Assembly: GCF_017306545.1 (NCBI RefSeq)
Contig: NZ_JAFKID010000025.1
Coordinates: forward strand, 1-64,000
Direction: 5' to 3'
Source: Mesorhizobium sp.
Lineage (GTDB): Bacteria > Pseudomonadota > Alphaproteobacteria > Rhizobiales > Rhizobiaceae
Length of the DNA: 64,000 bases
The notes below the pieces were generated by a model. That model did no database searches. It was not told the DNA's origin and saw only the letters and a program-made list of their open reading frames with translations. A program made the translations under genes and the position numbers. This document shows positions 51,300 to 58,236 of this stretch, one piece after another; positions within the stretch are counted from its first letter, which is position 1; each line of letters opens with the position of its first letter.

Positions 51300-52763
51300 C
51301 TACCTGCCCTGCCGTTCCAGTCGGTCTAGGAACCATTGGGTCAGCCTCACCCACACCTCGTCCTTCTCGCCGGTATCTTCGCAGCCATGGTCGAGATTGG
51401 GGTTGTCGTTGACCTCGATGACGAAAATGCCCTCCTTCGTCTCCTTGAGATCGACGCCGTAAAGGCCTTCGCCGATGCAGCGCGCCGCCTTCACGGCCGT
51501 TTCCACCACCTGCGGCGGCGTCTCTTTCAGCGTGAAGGTCTTGAAGCCGCCCTGGTCCGGCTTGCCGCTCGCCTTGTGGTGGACGATCTGCCAGTGCTTC
51601 TTGGCCATCAGGTAGTGGACGGCGAACAGCGGCTGGCCGCCCAGCACGCCGACGCGCCAGTCGAACTCCGTCGGGATGAATTTCTGCGCGATCAGGAGGT
51701 CGGAATCCTCCATCCATTCGGTCGCAAGCTGCCTGAGTTCCTCGACATTGGCGCATTTCTTGACGCCGCGCGAAAAGGACGAATCCGGGATTTTCAGCAC
51801 CAGCGGGAAGCCCAGCGTTTCGGCCGCCAGTTCGAAATCGGCCGGCCCGGCGATCATCACCGTCGGCGGCACCGGCACCTTGTGGGCCGTCATCAACTCG
51901 TTGAGATAGACCTTGTTGGTGCAGCGGATCATCGACAGCGGATCGTCGATCACCGGCATGCCCTCCTGCTGGGCGCGGCGGGCGAAGCGATAGGTGTGGT
52001 TGGATATCGACGTGGTCTCGCGGATGAACAGCGCGTCGTAGTTGGCGAGCCTGGCCAGATCCTTCTTGGTGATCGGCTCCACCTCGACGCCCATCTTCTC
52101 GGCGATGCGCGCCCAGTGGCGCAGGGAGGAGATTTCCGAGGGCGGCAATTCCTCCTGCGGATCGACCAGCGTGGCGAAAGTGTAGCGCGCCGGCGTGCGC
52201 GCTTTCGTGTCGCGCCATTCGCGCCCCGTATAGACGTCCATGCCGGCGAGGAAGCGTTTCTTTTCCTGCTCATCCATGCGGCCGAGCGGGCAAAAACCGA
52301 TCCTGCGGATGGAGGTCCATTCTGGACCGTCGGCGATGGAAACCTCGAGCGCCGGGGCACGGAACCAGTCGAACAGCAGTTTCGCGAAGCGGTCCCAGGC
52401 CTTCGACGGCCCGATGCCGAAGAAGATGTGCACCTTGGTCGGGAACGAGCCGCCGAGATCCTTGCGGCATTTGTTCAATGCCAGTTCCAGTTCCGGCAGC
52501 GCGTGCTCGTAGAGCTTGCGTTCCGACAGGTCGATCATCGTCTCCACCGTCGGGATCACGCGGTGTCCGCGCGAGGAAGCGAGCAGCGAGGCGTAGTAGC
52601 CCCGGCTCTGGTAGGCATAGCTGTTCGACAGGTTGATGACCTTCGGCCGCTGGCCGCGGAACAATGCCGGATGGGCGAGATAGTCGCGGTTGGTGATGAC
52701 CTTGTGCGGCGTCGCCGCCTGATCGAGATGGCTCTGTCTTCCGGTCAGGATGACCCAGGTCAT
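51300..52763 (-). CDS. RimK-type ATP-grasp ligase with RLAN N-terminal domain
   Basis: This 487-residue protein is in the branch of RimK-like ATP-grasp enzymes carrying an RLAN-type N-terminal domain (about residues 1-160). The ATP-grasp core begins near residue 260 with CTNKVYLNELMTAHKVPVPPT. It continues with LKIPDSSFSRGVKKC and ends with the metal-binding EVNDNPNLDHG at about 450-460. Such enzymes form amide bonds by acylphosphate chemistry, typically adding amino acids to proteins or small molecules. The start at 52763 overlaps the GNAT-C39 stop (ATGA). Target unknown. Confidence 0.88.
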   Translation of the reverse strand: MTWVILTGRQSHLDQAATPHKVITNRDYLAHPALFRGQRPKVINLSNSYAYQSRGYYASLLASSRGHRVIPTVETMIDLSERKLYEHALPELELALNKCRKDLGGSFPTKVHIFFGIGPSKAWDRFAKLLFDWFRAPALEVSIADGPEWTSIRRIGFCPLGRMDEQEKKRFLAGMDVYTGREWRDTKARTPARYTFATLVDPQEELPPSEISSLRHWARIAEKMGVEVEPITKKDLARLANYDALFIRETTSISNHTYRFARRAQQEGMPVIDDPLSMIRCTNKVYLNELMTAHKVPVPPTVMIAGPADFELAAETLGFPLVLKIPDSSFSRGVKKCANVEELRQLATEWMEDSDLLIAQKFIPTEFDWRVGVLGGQPLFAVHYLMAKKHWQIVHHKASGKPDQGGFKTFTLKETPPQVVETAVKAARCIGEGLYGVDLKETKEGIFVIEVNDNPNLDHGCEDTGEKDEVWVRLTQWFLDRLERQGR

Positions 52764-53863
52764 GGTTCTCGTTTTCCAAGGATGATGGCGGCGCGCAGGC
52801 CGTCGCGGCCGAATTGCGCCATGGTCATGAAGATGGCGTGGGGAACGGGAATGTTGGCGGCGTCGAGCGTCGTCTCCTGCCGCTCGTCCTCCACCCATGG
52901 ATCGTGGATGAGGATGTGGTCGCCGTCGTCGCCGATGGCCAGCACCCAATGCGGCACCTTCTTGCCGAACATCAGGAAGCCGCTGATGAGGACCAGGACA
53001 AGCTTGCCCGCACCGATCGCCGCGCGAATGTCGTCCAGCGCGAAGGGCCGATAGGTAACGGGGATGCCGTAGGCCTCGGCGCGGCGGCGGAAATCGACCT
53101 GCGCCAGTTCCATCACCCGGCGCTTTTCCTCGCTGCGCACCGATTGCAGGAACAGCGCACCGTAGAAAGAGACGTGGATTTCGGCCGACAGCCCGTTCTC
53201 ATGCGCGGCGACAGCGAGGCCGAACGGTTCGCAGCCACCCGGTCCCGACATCATGAAAACGGTGGTCGCCTCGCGCCACAGACGGATTTCCATGACCGGA
53301 TCGGGCGCGAAGGCGGGGGTAAAATACGCCATCGCCATCATCAGGCAGCAGGGGCCGCAGGTGAAATCGCAGGTCTGCTCGTAAAACGGCACGGCTGTCG
53401 AGGCCGGCACGCCGCCGCGCAACGTCTTTTCGTAGCGCAGCGCGGTGGCGCCATCCTCGTAATAATCGGCCTCGCGGCCGAAGCGGCGATAGCCGGCTTT
53501 CTCGTAGACGGAGATGGCCCGCTGGTTGTCCTCGCGCACTTCCAGCCGCAGCAGCATGCGGTCGTGACGGTAGGCCGTCTCCTCGGCCGCCTCCAGAAGC
53601 AAGCGGCCGATGCCCTGCCCGGCGAATCCGGGCGCGGCGGCGATCGAATAGAGGCGCGCGACGCCCGAACCGGTGCGCAGAAGCACGATCGCGTAGCCGG
53701 CGATTTCACTGTCCGCCTGGGCGACCAGCACCTCGGCCGTCTCGCGTTCGATCAGGGCCCTGAAAGACCGGCGCGAGATGCGGTCGCCGGGAAAAACGGC
53801 CTTCTCGATGGCGGCGAGGGCGTCGACGTCGGATGCGCGGGCCTTGCGGATATCGACAGGCAT
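52760..53863 (-). CDS. GNAT acetyltransferase / C39-like peptidase fusion
   Basis: This 367-residue two-domain protein has an N-terminal GNAT domain (residues ~1-150) with the acetyl-CoA loop GFAGQGIGRLLL. The C-terminal domain resembles the DUF3335 C39-like papain-fold family. Gln163 and Cys169 (TCDFTCGPCCLMM), His305 (VPHWVLAIG) and Asp321 (IHDPW) form a complete Cys-His-Asp arrangement. C39 peptidases usually trim leader peptides. Translational coupling to the ATP-grasp ligase implies a joint peptide- or protein-modifying role. The anti-sigma gene ends 151 bp upstream on the same strand. Confidence 0.87.
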   Translation of the reverse strand: MPVDIRKARASDVDALAAIEKAVFPGDRISRRSFRALIERETAEVLVAQADSEIAGYAIVLLRTGSGVARLYSIAAAPGFAGQGIGRLLLEAAEETAYRHDRMLLRLEVREDNQRAISVYEKAGYRRFGREADYYEDGATALRYEKTLRGGVPASTAVPFYEQTCDFTCGPCCLMMAMAYFTPAFAPDPVMEIRLWREATTVFMMSGPGGCEPFGLAVAAHENGLSAEIHVSFYGALFLQSVRSEEKRRVMELAQVDFRRRAEAYGIPVTYRPFALDDIRAAIGAGKLVLVLISGFLMFGKKVPHWVLAIGDDGDHILIHDPWVEDERQETTLDAANIPVPHAIFMTMAQFGRDGLRAAIILGKREP

Positions 53864-54014
53864 GAAAGCGCGGGAAACCTCGGCTGGAACGACCGAAATG
53901 GGCTTGCCGAAACAACGGCGTACGCGGACCGGACAAGCCGTGGACGATCAGCGCTATCGCGCTTCGAATCGGGCCGAATTGTGGCAGATTCGGGCGGCGG
54001 CAAACGACGCTTCT

Positions 54015-54806
54015 TCAGGACTCCACGCCGGCCAGAAGCTGCTGCCAGGCGCTCCTGGCGACAGCGTTCAGGCGCCCTTCCGGCAGCGTTCCGACGACGG
54101 CGCAGCCATAGCCCTTGCCCAGCCAGTAGACGGCGCGCGGGCCGTCGCCGCCATGGGCATAGACGCCCTTGCCGCTGGCCGCCGGCTCGGCCGTCACGAA
54201 CAGCGAAATGCGGTCGCCCCCGTCGTCCTGGTAGAGCAGCATGGCGGCGCTGCCGTTGCCTGCCGGCAGGAGCCTGCCGCCGACCAGGTCGAAGCCGTCG
54301 CCGGTCAGGTTCGGCGCCACCAGCTTCAGCCCGACGCGCTTCGACAGCCATGCTTCCATATGGTCCCGGTCGCTGGCCGGCACTTCGACGGCGTGGCGCT
54401 TTTCGGCGGCGTAGACAACATGGGCCGCGATCGCTTCTTCGGCCAACTGGTCGTCGGCTGCCTCGGCCGTGCCCGAGCCGGAAAGGCCGGCGACATAGCC
54501 GCCGGCGCCGCCGATCGCCAATAGAAGAACGGCGGCCGCCGCCAGCCACCAGCGGGAGGCGAACCGGCCAGGCCGCGCCGGGGCTTCGCCGAACACCGCG
54601 CGGGTCAGCCTCGCCGGGACCGGCTCGTCCGCCACGCCGGCAAAAGCGGTGCGCAGCGCCTCGACGTCGGCCGCATAGCGGAGGCTTCTCGCCTTCATTT
54701 CAGGATTGGCGTTCAGCCACGCCTCGTAGGCTGCCCGCTCCTCGCCCGGCAGTTCGCCGTCGAGCGCCATGTGAATGTCCCGTTCGGTGAAATCGCGCCC
54801 GCTCAT
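54015..54806 (-). CDS. Anti-sigma factor (single-pass membrane)
   Basis: This 263-residue protein is organised as an anti-sigma factor. The cytoplasmic N-terminal domain is about 80 residues (ERDIHMALDGELPGEERAAYEAWL), with no zinc HCCH motif. One membrane helix follows (about 86-108, WWLAAAAVLLLAIGG). The periplasmic C-terminal domain is globular and ends YGCAVVGTLPEG...WQQLLAG. Its start overlaps the sigma-factor stop by four bases, the usual coupled sigma/anti-sigma arrangement. The signal it senses is unknown. Confidence 0.88.
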   Translation of the reverse strand: MSGRDFTERDIHMALDGELPGEERAAYEAWLNANPEMKARSLRYAADVEALRTAFAGVADEPVPARLTRAVFGEAPARPGRFASRWWLAAAAVLLLAIGGAGGYVAGLSGSGTAEAADDQLAEEAIAAHVVYAAEKRHAVEVPASDRDHMEAWLSKRVGLKLVAPNLTGDGFDLVGGRLLPAGNGSAAMLLYQDDGGDRISLFVTAEPAASGKGVYAHGGDGPRAVYWLGKGYGCAVVGTLPEGRLNAVARSAWQQLLAGVES

Positions 54807-55321
54807 GTCTCGACAACCCTGATGTTGCGGCGGCGCGTGGAATCATCGAGCAGCGCGCGCAGTTCCTCGCGGCCGCGGGCAATGCGCGACATCAGCGTCC
54901 CGGCCGGCACGCCCAGCATGTTGGCGGCCTCCGCGTAGGAAAAGCCTTCGATGGAAACCAGCACCAGCGCGGCCCGGCGGTCCGGGCTGATCGCCTGAAG
55001 CGCATCGACGATCTCGCGCGAGGCGGCGTTACCGAACTGCTCGGCGGGCGCCGCCAGCGCTTCGCCGGAATCGAGCGGCATCATCGCCGCCTCGCCGCGG
55101 CGCCCCGCCTTGCGCATCCGGTCGATGAAGAGATGATGCATGATCGTGAACAGCCATCTGCGGGGGCTTTCCCCCGTCTGCCAGTTGTCGATCCGGGTGA
55201 GCGCGCGTTCGAGGCAATCCTGGACGAGATCGTCGGCCGCGTCGCGCTCGCGCAGAAGGGCGCGCGCATAACGCCTGAGGCGCGGTATTTCGCCGACGAT
55301 TGCTGCCTTCCTGTCGTCCAT
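54803..55321 (-). CDS. ECF-type RNA polymerase sigma factor
   Basis: This 172-residue sigma70-family protein contains regions 2 and 4 only. Region 2 is DAADDLVQDCLERALTRID with WLFTIMHHLFIDRMRK. Region 4 is LVLVSIEGFSYAEAANMLGVPAGTLMSRIARGREEL. An anti-sigma gene overlaps its stop. A GGAAT-N17-CGTT promoter lies ~95 bp upstream and probably supports autoregulation. It is not EcfG itself, because no NepR/PhyR genes are adjacent. Confidence 0.92.
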   Translation of the reverse strand: MDDRKAAIVGEIPRLRRYARALLRERDAADDLVQDCLERALTRIDNWQTGESPRRWLFTIMHHLFIDRMRKAGRRGEAAMMPLDSGEALAAPAEQFGNAASREIVDALQAISPDRRAALVLVSIEGFSYAEAANMLGVPAGTLMSRIARGREELRALLDDSTRRRNIRVVET

Positions 55322-55416
55322 GCTGCCCGTTCTTGCCCGCCCGGCCTGCCGAGCGGCCCTCGGTCGACCCGTCCGCGAAGACGCCCGGCAAAGGCGCCTC
55401 GCGCGGATAAAAGGAA

Positions 55417-55442
55417 AACGAAATCGCCTGCCGGTTTATTCC
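55417..55442 (-). promoter_or_regulatory. Candidate autoregulated ECF promoter, GGAAT-N17-CGTT
   Basis: On the minus strand GGAAT (complement of 55438-55442) and CGTT (complement of 55417-55420) are 17 bases apart. It resembles the alphaproteobacterial ECF consensus and has the same spacing as the site before the COG4315 gene. It begins 4 bases after the DUF2339 stop codon and would give an 85-90 nt leader before the sigma gene. Confidence 0.45.
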
Positions 55443-55446
55443 CGGT

Positions 55447-58236
55447 TCACGGCGCCGCCTCGGCTCCCTTCTTCGCCGGAGTGAGCAGCCGCTGATAGAA
55501 CAGGCCGATGCCGATCAGCACCGCGCCGAGGCCGATGAAGGAAAGCGCGCGCAGAACGCCTTCCAGTTCGGACATGTCGAACAGGAAGACCTTCAGCACG
55601 GCGACGGCGATCAGCGCCGCCGAAGCAATGCGCAGCACCTGCGAGCGCAGCCGCACGCCGACGACGAGCAGGACCACGCCGATAGCCAGCCAGAGCGCCG
55701 AATAGGTGTATGTTTCCACCTGCTCCATTCCACTCCACAGGCCGATGAACTGGCCTTTGAACAGGCGCCGCACCGACAGCGTCGCATAGGCGAAGGCGAG
55801 CAGCGCCGCCGTCAGCGCCAGCATAGCCGAATACCATCTCGGCCGTTTGCCGCGAACGTAAAGCGCCAGAAGCCCGGCCGCGACCGCCGGCAGCAGATAG
55901 GCGAGGAACAGGAGGTTGAAGACGGGAATCGAGCCGGTCGATTCGTCGGTGAACAGCGGATTCAGCCACAGGAAGTGATTACCGATGATCGACAACACCG
56001 ATAGCACGCCGATGGCGAGCGAGCCGTAGCGCAGCACCGAACTCGGCGCGCGCTGATCGATGGAGACGAGGATCGCCGCGAAGCCAAGCGCGATCAGCGT
56101 ATAGATCGCCTGCTCGGCCAACGTCGGCGCGCCGGCGTCGATGACGCCGCCGTGCATGGCGTGACGCACCAGCATGGCCAGCGTCAACAGCGCGAACAGG
56201 GCCGCCGAAGCCTCCATGGCGAGCCGCGGCCGGCCTGCCGTGGTGCGGGCGAGCTGCCAGGCCGAGGCCGCGAAGGCTAGCGCGGGAATGCCGTAGCCCG
56301 GCAGCAGCCAGTTGAAGACCGGGGTGAGCGACAGCGCGTCGGCGCCGACAATGGTCGGGTCGAAGGCGACGCGGGCGAGCACGGCCACCGCCGCACCAAC
56401 CGAAAGCCAGCCGAGCACCGGATAGGAGCGTCGGCGCGTCGCCAGGGCAGGCACCAGCGCCGCGGCACCGGCCAGCACCGTCGTCAGGCCCGAGCCGAAG
56501 GCCATATGCAGGAAGGCGAGGCCGGCGATGCCGGCGCCGGCCAGGGCGAACGAGACGGCGCCGCCGCCCGACAATGGCGGCTGCTCGGCGCTGGCGATCC
56601 ATTCACTGCCGGCGACGAAGACCGCCGCCAGCAGCACGGCAAAGGCGGCATAGCCGTAATCGCGGTCGATGTTGCCGTACGTCACCCACAGCGCCAGCAT
56701 GACGACCAGCGGCACGGCAACGGCCCAGCCGGCCCAGGTCGCGGCCTGCAACGGCGCCGAGGCCACCAGGCGCCGGCCGCTGCGGAAGCCGGCGGCAATG
56801 AAGGCGGCCGCGAGCGCGATGCCCAGCCATCGCATCAGGCCGCCGCCGATCGCGGCCGAGCCGAACACCGGCGGCATGGCCTCGACGGGCGTGAGGAAAT
56901 CGCGGACGCTGTCCGGAGACAGGGCGATGACCTGCACGATGCCGAGGAAGACGAGCACGGAAGTCGCGCCGGCGGCGTGGACGAGCGCCAGCGCGGCGCG
57001 CCGATAGAGCGCCACCGCCAGCATGGCGGCGACCAGCAGCGCGCCGGCAATACGGGCTGGCGTTCCCGACAGATAGGGTGCGTAGAATAGCGCTAGCACC
57101 GACAGGCCGACGAACAGGCCCGACACGGCGGCCGGCAGGTCCACACCGGCGTGCGCGCCCTGCTCCCGGCGGCCGCCGAGCCATGCGAAAGCCAGCACGG
57201 CCAGCGTCACCAGCCCGATGAAGAGCACGATGCGATAGTCCGGGCCCGGCGATTGGCCGATATAGAGCAGCGTCCAGAACCCGATGCCGAAGAAAGCCGC
57301 CGTCATCAGGAAGGCCCACGACCGGATGCGGGCGACGAAGCCGGCCGCCGCCAGCACGATGGCCAGATAGCCGAACAGCGCCCAGTCGTCGCGCGACTGC
57401 GTGGCGACCAGAAGCGGCGTCGCCAATGCGCCGAGCAGGCCGATCCCGGCCAGCGCCTGCCCATGCACCAGCGCAAGGCCGATCGTGCCGAGCGCGATCA
57501 GCCCCAGCAGGGCGAACGCCGTCGCCGGCCCGACAAATCCGTATACGGCGTGGGCGGCATAGACGGTGCCGAACAGGGTGAAAGCGCCGGCCGCCGTCAG
57601 GATCGCCGGTATGTAGGCGCCGGCCGCGCCCTCGACCGGCATCTTGAAGCCGGTGCGGCGGACGAACTCGCCGCCGCCGACCAGCACAAGCCCCAGCACC
57701 GCCGCCATGGCAATGCGCACTTCGGGGCCGAACACGCCCGCCTCGATGGTGTAGCGCACCAGGAACAGGCCGCCCAACGCCAGCGCCAGACCGCCGACCC
57801 AGACCGCCCAGCGCGTGCCCAGCGCCGTCTCGATGTCGCGCGTCTTCGCCTTTGGCGCGGATGTGCCGACCGCAGCCTCGGCCGCCTTGGTTTCGGGTGG
57901 CGAAGTCTCCAGCGCAACAGGCCCCTGCGCGGCGGCCGTCGCCATGGCCGGGGCCGCCGCCTCGACGCCCCAAGGACCGGAAGCCGGCGCGGAATCTGCC
58001 GATGCGGCTGCTTCAATATCCGGGGGAGCGCCGGAGCCAGGGCCTTCCGACACCGCAAGCGGCGGAGAGGCGGCCGCGTCCTTCACCGAAGCCGCGCCGG
58101 CAGCAGGCTCATTGCCGAGCACCAGCCCGCGCAAGGCGGCCAGTTCCCGCTCGACCAAGGCGAGGCGGGCTTGCTGCCGCGACAGAATGACGAACAGCGC
58201 GATGATGGCGGCAAGGCCGATCAGGCTCTCGAACAT
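55447..58236 (-). CDS. Giant DUF2339 polytopic membrane protein (929 aa)
   Basis: Translation from the ATG at 58236 gives a signal/anchor helix and a coiled-coil-like segment (RQQARLALVERELAALRGL). An Ala/Pro-rich linker follows. From IETALGTRWAVWVGGLALALGG onward there are about two dozen membrane helices of the DUF2339 type. The function is unknown; the size and helix count recall large integral proteins of envelope maintenance. The gene lies upstream of the ECF sigma gene on the same strand. It ends only 5 bp from the ECF promoter, so it may or may not be cotranscribed. Confidence 0.88.
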   Translation of the reverse strand: MFESLIGLAAIIALFVILSRQQARLALVERELAALRGLVLGNEPAAGAASVKDAAASPPLAVSEGPGSGAPPDIEAAASADSAPASGPWGVEAAAPAMATAAAQGPVALETSPPETKAAEAAVGTSAPKAKTRDIETALGTRWAVWVGGLALALGGLFLVRYTIEAGVFGPEVRIAMAAVLGLVLVGGGEFVRRTGFKMPVEGAAGAYIPAILTAAGAFTLFGTVYAAHAVYGFVGPATAFALLGLIALGTIGLALVHGQALAGIGLLGALATPLLVATQSRDDWALFGYLAIVLAAAGFVARIRSWAFLMTAAFFGIGFWTLLYIGQSPGPDYRIVLFIGLVTLAVLAFAWLGGRREQGAHAGVDLPAAVSGLFVGLSVLALFYAPYLSGTPARIAGALLVAAMLAVALYRRAALALVHAAGATSVLVFLGIVQVIALSPDSVRDFLTPVEAMPPVFGSAAIGGGLMRWLGIALAAAFIAAGFRSGRRLVASAPLQAATWAGWAVAVPLVVMLALWVTYGNIDRDYGYAAFAVLLAAVFVAGSEWIASAEQPPLSGGGAVSFALAGAGIAGLAFLHMAFGSGLTTVLAGAAALVPALATRRRSYPVLGWLSVGAAVAVLARVAFDPTIVGADALSLTPVFNWLLPGYGIPALAFAASAWQLARTTAGRPRLAMEASAALFALLTLAMLVRHAMHGGVIDAGAPTLAEQAIYTLIALGFAAILVSIDQRAPSSVLRYGSLAIGVLSVLSIIGNHFLWLNPLFTDESTGSIPVFNLLFLAYLLPAVAAGLLALYVRGKRPRWYSAMLALTAALLAFAYATLSVRRLFKGQFIGLWSGMEQVETYTYSALWLAIGVVLLVVGVRLRSQVLRIASAALIAVAVLKVFLFDMSELEGVLRALSFIGLGAVLIGIGLFYQRLLTPAKKGAEAAP

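Follow-up and report, generated by a model that had tools for sequence, protein, structure and literature searches.

The element under study is a four-gene locus on the minus strand of a 64,000-nucleotide stretch of Mesorhizobium sp. DNA (contig NZ_JAFKID010000025.1, positions 1 to 64,000; hereafter the window), in which a GNAT acetyltransferase fused to a C39-like peptidase domain and an RLAN-RimK ligase follow an extracytoplasmic function (ECF) sigma factor and its anti-sigma factor. Judged from sequence comparison, the core of this system is the acetyltransferase and the ligase rather than the ligase and the peptidase, the C39 domain being optional, and these two partners make up an old and widespread unit; the ECF linkage is conserved and lineage-restricted, yet separable from the ligase pair, which has a predicted control element of its own, independent of the sigma gene. 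We propose, with confidence that falls somewhat short of even, that the GNAT protein and the LysX/RimK-like ligase make an N-acetylated short peptide or amide, with C39 as an optional hydrolase and, in the Mesorhizobium lineage, transcription reaching the pair by read-through from the sigma promoter. The genome holding the window measures 4.8 Mb, and the closest named relative of its ligase, 92% identical, is that of Mesorhizobium composti.

Spread and composition of the unit

The ligase gene (51300..52763, minus strand) encodes 487 amino acids, and the gene before it (52760..53863, minus strand) encodes a GNAT domain at about residues 1-150 (PF00583) fused to a DUF3335/C39-like papain-fold domain (PF11814). 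An earlier note on this DNA had drawn these two genes and the sigma and anti-sigma genes with coordinates and orientation that were exact in our open reading frame (ORF) check, and it was equally correct on the 4-bp overlaps within the sigma/anti-sigma and GNAT-C39/RimK pairs and on the 151-bp gap between the pairs. Genomes with PF11814 numbered 47 of 151 in a family sample, 35 of 385 in a class sample, 58 of 398 in a phylum sample, and one of 14 among controls. Among 120 stretches plus the window, C39 was called in 117 and RLAN-RimK in 106, and of the 104 loci with both called, 82 have the ligase as the next gene downstream, in the same orientation, and 15 have it divergent; the gene caller overlooked C39 in four loci (L177, L187, L193, and L200). 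The earlier note's statement that other proteobacteria also carry the GNAT-C39/RimK pair is borne out by the class, phylum, and named-locus samples.

A search for the ligase itself found it in 65 of the 151 family genomes, and in 17 of these 65 a GNAT gene without C39 precedes the ligase, none of the 17 being a PF11814-positive genome. The C39-less GNAT proteins stop at about 150-175 residues, directly past the GNAT fold. Our ligase tree of 68 rows (the window, five genus loci, and all family stretches except L125, where there is no RimK) contains 19 C39-less rows, one being L163, with a diverged stand-alone C39, and one being L294, a fusion. In a separate scan of 80 named loci, GNAT stood near RimK in 79, while 51 of the loci had C39 and 18 had the anti-sigma factor; C39 was not found in 28 of the 79 GNAT-RimK loci, whose GNAT lies within 0.41 kb of RimK. 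At L392 the GNAT gene is on the opposite strand, about 1.3 kb from RimK. A single chain GNAT-RLAN-RimK is encoded at L294:6483-8462, and our gene calls give a second such fusion at L198:5282-7285, beside a separate GNAT-C39 gene, while L163:5785-8309 comprises GNAT and RimK genes and, in the opposite orientation, a C39-like gene standing alone, with sigma and anti-sigma genes still upstream. Because of the proximity of GNAT to RimK in all but one of the named loci, the fused chains, and the frequent lack of C39, we regard GNAT and ligase as the constant partners, which probably work as one unit. The "building and trimming" that the earlier note had considered for the system cannot be its common core, since the peptidase, not found in those 28 loci, is dispensable.

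The presence of C39 requires 17 changes on a quick RimK tree (starred branches force at least eight of these) and one on a quick GNAT tree, at a Shimodaira-Hasegawa-like approximate likelihood ratio test (SH-aLRT) value of 88. Excluded from both quick trees were L163 and L294, named loci L317-L330 (14 in all), and L391, which has no GNAT, together with eight further named loci that were near-copies or already present. A single loss of C39 would agree with the GNAT tree and not with the RimK tree; because the C39-less GNATs sit on longer branches in the quick trees, repeated loss with faster evolution and swapping of the GNAT gene both fit. A tie between ECF gain and C39 loss found no support, with four independent pairs on supported branches (L294 left out).

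Neighbor clustering covered ORFs of at least 60 amino acids within five genes of the called C39 gene, and the other recurring neighbors were, by eye, mostly housekeeping or local-synteny genes. These data bear on graspetide-like maturation of a ribosomally synthesized and post-translationally modified peptide (RiPP) whose precursor would be encoded nearby or elsewhere, an idea that is favored by the meeting of an ATP-grasp ligase with a C39-type domain. However, the C39 domain is optional, no recurring precursor-peptide gene was seen by eye near the pair among the ORFs covered, and the shortest neighbor families (those in at least four loci) have median lengths of 128-148 amino acids and look RlpA-, LysM-, and S4-like by eye. 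A major facilitator superfamily (MFS) transporter-like gene does recur, in 23 loci (e.g., L134:9918-11156), upstream of the pair and mostly on the opposite strand, but it reads as local synteny, and we hold RiPP maturation to be very improbable. Three further observations concern the surroundings of PF11814 genes. A DUF2817 family lies near GNAT-C39/RimK in seven loci (L209, L215, L217, L222, L223, L224, and L238; confirmed by Pfam in L222 and L224), and a DUF155 family in nine loci, one confirmed by Pfam, both seen in genomes of the phylum sample that do not belong to the class. In the class sample, the DUF3335 genes of L191, L192, L194, L195, and L196 had neither a GNAT part nor a RimK neighbor called.

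The ligase and the acetyltransferase-peptidase

Pfam recognizes in the ligase an RLAN domain (PF14401; 6e-38, 130.3 bits) and a RimK domain (PF08443; 2.6e-11, 43.9 bits), both over the cut-off, and its best NCBIfam matches, LysX_arch (9.7e-26) and rimK_fam (5.5e-25), are both under theirs. The protein scores 90.5 bits against LysX TIGR02144 (cut-off 275.6), 88.3 bits against the RimK alpha-L-glutamate ligase model TIGR00768 (cut-off 143.4), and 29.8 bits against the RimK model (cut-off 331), and the model of N-acetylglutaminylglutamine amide (NAGGN) synthase, TIGR03103, was not among its NCBIfam matches. The best fold matches of its structure model (predicted local distance difference test, pLDDT, 85.9; predicted template-modeling score, pTM, 0.59) are LysX/ArgX and RimK, and the solved RimK/LysX relatives align from about profile position 238 on, the RLAN part being extra. 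The ATP-grasp motif that the earlier note had located near 450-460 is present, with E450, N452, D453, N454, and P455 invariant both in a 13-row alignment and in a 27-row one that took 26 of the 80 named loci.

The GNAT-C39 protein matches PF11814 at residues 158-362 with an E value of 2.4e-79 and 266 bits, passing the cut-off of 25 bits. Its Gln163, Cys169, His305, and Asp321, the residues on which the peptidase had been expected to be active, form a papain-type set that is invariant in 27 rows (the window and 26 of the 80 named loci), and Asp321 is replaced by Glu in two of the 14 rows of a more diverse alignment. By profile and fold the GNAT half is closest to the N-alpha acetyltransferases RimI and Ard1; the structure model used for this comparison had a pLDDT of 89.3 and a pTM of 0.84, and the fold matches listed all fell on the GNAT half, with none on the C39 half, which was not folded alone. 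Against RimI TIGR01575 the protein scores 81.3 bits, under the cut-off of 86.4, and in a search of its own genome with the RimI model it ranks second with 84 bits, behind a top match of 87.1 bits.

Such similarities invite the view that GNAT and RimK are stress-tuned RimI/RimK paralogues that would act on ribosomal proteins, in agreement with the second rank of the GNAT and the type of the ligase. That view is quite improbable in our estimation, for another copy in the same genome passes the RimI cut-off and the ligase stays under the cut-offs of both the RimK-family model (88.3/143.4 bits) and the RimK model (29.8/331 bits). The main rival as regards the product is protein tagging, in which the ligase would extend a protein C-terminus in the style of RimK on RpsF, the GNAT would acetylate a protein N-terminus, and C39 would untag. 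The RimK fold and the RimI-like GNAT are both compatible with it, and a working example exists in Pseudomonas fluorescens, where the protease RimB counteracts RimK (PMC12239564), but the RLAN part lies outside the region matched by the solved relatives and no C39 to do the untagging was found in 28 of the 79 loci, which leaves tagging doubtful. An anti-phage role was also considered and set aside, as none of the four proteins had a PADLOC match at E 0.01.

Linkage to the sigma and anti-sigma genes

The sigma factor (54803..55321, minus strand), probably of group ECF26, carries sigma-70 regions r2 and r4 according to Pfam, and the gene after it (54015..54806, minus strand) encodes the anti-sigma factor, of 263 amino acids. 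The latter has no Pfam match and two NCBIfam anti-sigma matches far under their cut-offs (39.2/225 and 28.6/100 bits), and its orthologues adjoin sigma genes in relatives. The order of the two genes, anti-sigma after sigma, fits the ECF26 style, with a weak N-terminal profile match and a hydrophobic, possibly transmembrane, stretch at about residues 86-108 recognized by eye.

A full-length GNAT-C39 gene is present in 35 of 37 genus genomes, and 27 of the 29 genus loci fetched besides the window have sigma and anti-sigma genes directly upstream; of the other two, L011 runs off its contig and L015/L235 is interrupted by about 1.3 kb of inserted DNA. In the family sample the anti-sigma factor occurs at no less than 45% identity in 27 genomes, that of the window included, and in 23 of these carriers, spanning 19 genera, its gene precedes GNAT and RimK at a distance of no more than 1.6 kb and shares their strand. 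Gaps of 0.8-1.6 kb occur in five linked family genomes (G111, G122, G095, G195, and G115), and gaps of 1.1-1.6 kb between anti-sigma factor and GNAT were seen at L235 (same genome as L015), L143, L163, L280, and L292. Among the four unlinked carriers, G148 meets a contig edge after GNAT, G190 and G100 have the pair elsewhere, and no RimK was found in G075. On the ligase tree, 26 of 27 sigma-linked rows fall inside one supported set of 32 rows, with L292 outside; other family members have the GNAT/ligase pair between the same neighbors without a sigma gene, and most units outside the lineage are without the sigma pair.

The association that the earlier note had pointed to, a ligase pair next to a stress sigma factor, is thus a conserved arrangement in genus and family neighborhoods and not an accident of one genome, and pair and ECF genes do occur together in related genomes, contrary to the lack of co-occurrence that the note had named as part of a refutation; the association holds in most carriers and comes apart in G075, G190, and G100. 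As a separate observation, RimK is followed on its own strand by a more distantly related ECF gene (34-37% identity) in L166 and in three Azospirillum loci (L383, L385, and L387).

Promoter and leader elements

A candidate ECF26-type promoter of the sigma gene, GGGAATAA-N15-CGTT, is located at 55417..55443 (minus strand), directly after the stop of the DUF2339 gene. It agrees with the ECF26 consensus (-35 GGAATA, -10 GT) and matches the mapped promoters of the rpoE1 operon and of rpoE4 in Sinorhizobium meliloti (PMC6180224). A looser ECF26-like pattern stands before 42 of the 48 sigma genes examined, namely all 25 from the genus and 17 of the 23 from other genera, and before none of 46 GNAT genes, compared with an average of 0.35 matches over 20 rounds of shuffled sigma upstreams. 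Copies of the exact site number 39, spread over 24 of the 31 genus genomes, versus one control match, and, by distance to GNAT, it stands before the sigma gene in 22 genomes; the site in G005, 2.1 kb before GNAT, is uncertain. A wider sigma regulon is not supported, since the window's own genome has five sites at looser spacing versus two in the control. In S. meliloti, RpoE1 and RpoE3 have few targets (PMC6180224). A further ECF26-type site that recurs, GGGAATAAT-N14-CGTT, was seen before genes that read as cytochrome c'-like and cytochrome c-like in three genus genomes (L419, L422, and L426), and a paralogous ECF26 sigma factor may be the one that uses it.

The GNAT gene is preceded by a different element. 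Within the 151-nt gap, or leader, between anti-sigma factor and GNAT (53864..54014, minus strand), a conserved 36-nt block (53951..53986, minus strand) precedes the start of GNAT by about 120 nt and is a candidate promoter, operator, or leader-RNA element. Its motif, derived from the linked loci with 33 fixed positions, scores at least 23 in 17 of 20 sigma-linked family loci (exceptions L282, L283, and L292) and 23 to 28 in 11 of 42 family loci without a sigma gene; 212 shuffled upstreams, one each, reached 19 at most, and in the window's own genome the block is single copy with up to three mismatches allowed. The remaining 31 sigma-less loci score lower, and for that reason the block is not universal. 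Control of the block by ChvI was rejected because it resembles neither of the ChvI motifs in print, direct repeats of GCC in S. meliloti and TTGC-N3-GCAA in Caulobacter (PMC9731502); no ChvI motif is given in the accessible part of PMC10659215.

The leader may also act as RNA. Rfam returned no family at gathering score over 53500-55700, the gap of the window folds with a z of -1.76, a slight advantage over its shuffles (11 of 200 as good), and RNAalifold found no common structure in 66 leaders of mixed genera. In 23 genus leaders (L297-L347, leaving out L301, L314, and identical leaders) it proposed a hairpin of nine pairs, in which both sides carry changes (e.g., CG to UA) and some pairs are broken, and which could be a cis-regulatory RNA; as the hairpin is not visible in the window's own leader, we treat it as a lead.

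With an ECF-type promoter before the sigma gene only and a separate block before GNAT, any control by sigma would be by read-through. The position of the pair "behind an ECF sigma", as the earlier note had put it, does not by itself imply control. In an alternative account the ECF pair is a bystander that controls itself and a few envelope genes, GNAT and RimK being driven by their own element. It accords with the promoter's restriction to the sigma gene, with the block in sigma-less loci, with the three genomes in which sigma and ligase come apart, and with the five loci showing gaps of 1.1-1.6 kb, and it sits less easily with a linkage retained across 19 genera of the family sample and with a gap in the window where no terminator-like site was detected. 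We regard the bystander explanation as a serious one whose chances lie a little below one half.

Proposed pathway

Our own proposal, the N-acetylated product with sigma read-through in the lineage, would run as follows. The ligase would couple a carboxyl group, through an amide bond, to an amino acid or to a small amine. The GNAT would N-acetylate what the ligase makes, or its precursor, so that the outcome is a short peptide or amide with an N-acetyl group, and in proteins that keep the fused C39 domain this domain would hydrolyse the compound or recycle it. An N-acetylated amide is favored because the ligase is nearest to LysX/ArgX/RimK, the GNAT is nearest to N-alpha acetyltransferases, and the logic resembles that of NAGGN synthase. 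In the Mesorhizobium lineage, the sigma factor upstream of the pair, accompanied by a putative membrane anti-sigma factor, would be autoregulated, and envelope stress could raise transcription of the pair by read-through from the sigma promoter, added to the pair's own promoter or leader. The regulatory half of the proposal draws on the linkage in 23 of 27 family carriers, on the ECF26-like promoter at 42 of 48 sigma upstreams, and on a gap in the window that shows no terminator-like site.

Several points weigh against this proposal. None of the results identifies product or substrates, and proteins could be the targets of the GNAT, as they are of RimI; TIGR03103, the model of NAGGN synthase, matches the GNAT part only, with 20.4 bits against a cut-off of 569. 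The block of the pair also occurs in sigma-less loci, so the sigma factor may be irrelevant to it, and synteny alone is weak functional evidence here because neighbors such as the HD, YgfZ, and DUF2339 genes also keep their place. In its fullest version the proposal describes a dedicated pathway by which the Mesorhizobium lineage makes a stress metabolite: envelope stress would act through the ECF26 sigma factor and read-through past the conserved leader to yield the N-acetylated peptide or amide, and the pathway would have an operator or a cis-regulatory RNA of its own. We put this version forward as unlikely in its entirety.

Comparison with known systems

Among the literature matches listed, of which titles and the beginnings of abstracts were covered, no paper assigned a function to the unit or treated its ECF link. 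Neighborhoods combining GNAT-DUF3335 with RLAN-RimK are reportedly among the predicted amidoligase neighborhoods, probably those described by Iyer et al. in 2009. The domains are the same in our locus, to which an upstream ECF26-type sigma/anti-sigma pair and the dispensability of C39 are added. With reference to that 2009 work, DUF3335 is described as often fused to GNAT domains that might be peptide ligases or acetylases (PMC10318531). The GNAT/RLAN-RimK unit is widespread in Pseudomonadota, and its constant acetyltransferase and ligase, its single-chain forms, and its optional peptidase narrow the chemistry to be considered.

NAGGN synthase, which makes an osmolyte, combines a GNAT with an ATP-grasp ligase and has a peptidase partner. 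The unit shares the first two, in one chain at L294 and L198, but the L294 fusion scores 18 bits on TIGR03103 (GNAT part only; cut-off 569), the ligase of our locus carries the extra RLAN domain, and the amidotransferase partner was not seen by eye among the recurring neighbors, no search having been aimed at it. Our best guess is that the unit works like NAGGN synthase but is not a member of that family. The LysX/ArgX amino-group-carrier ligases are the closest in fold and profile to the ATP-grasp part, and the ligase differs from them in its RLAN domain and in scoring far under the LysX cut-off. RimABK of Pseudomonas and RloABC also join a RimK-type ligase to a peptidase, counteracting in Rim and linked in Rlo, which is retropepsin-like where ours has a papain fold, and no GNAT is named in those loci in the sections of the sources that were available. 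On the regulatory side, S. meliloti RpoE1, RpoE3, RpoE4, and RpoE6 show the same order of sigma then anti-sigma gene, the latter for a membrane protein in that species, and the same GGAATA/GT promoter (PMC6180224). The ECF26 promoter gives an immediate experimental handle on the unit, whose acetyltransferase-ligase pair, as the neighbor of the sigma module, distinguishes the Mesorhizobium locus from the ECF26 modules of S. meliloti.

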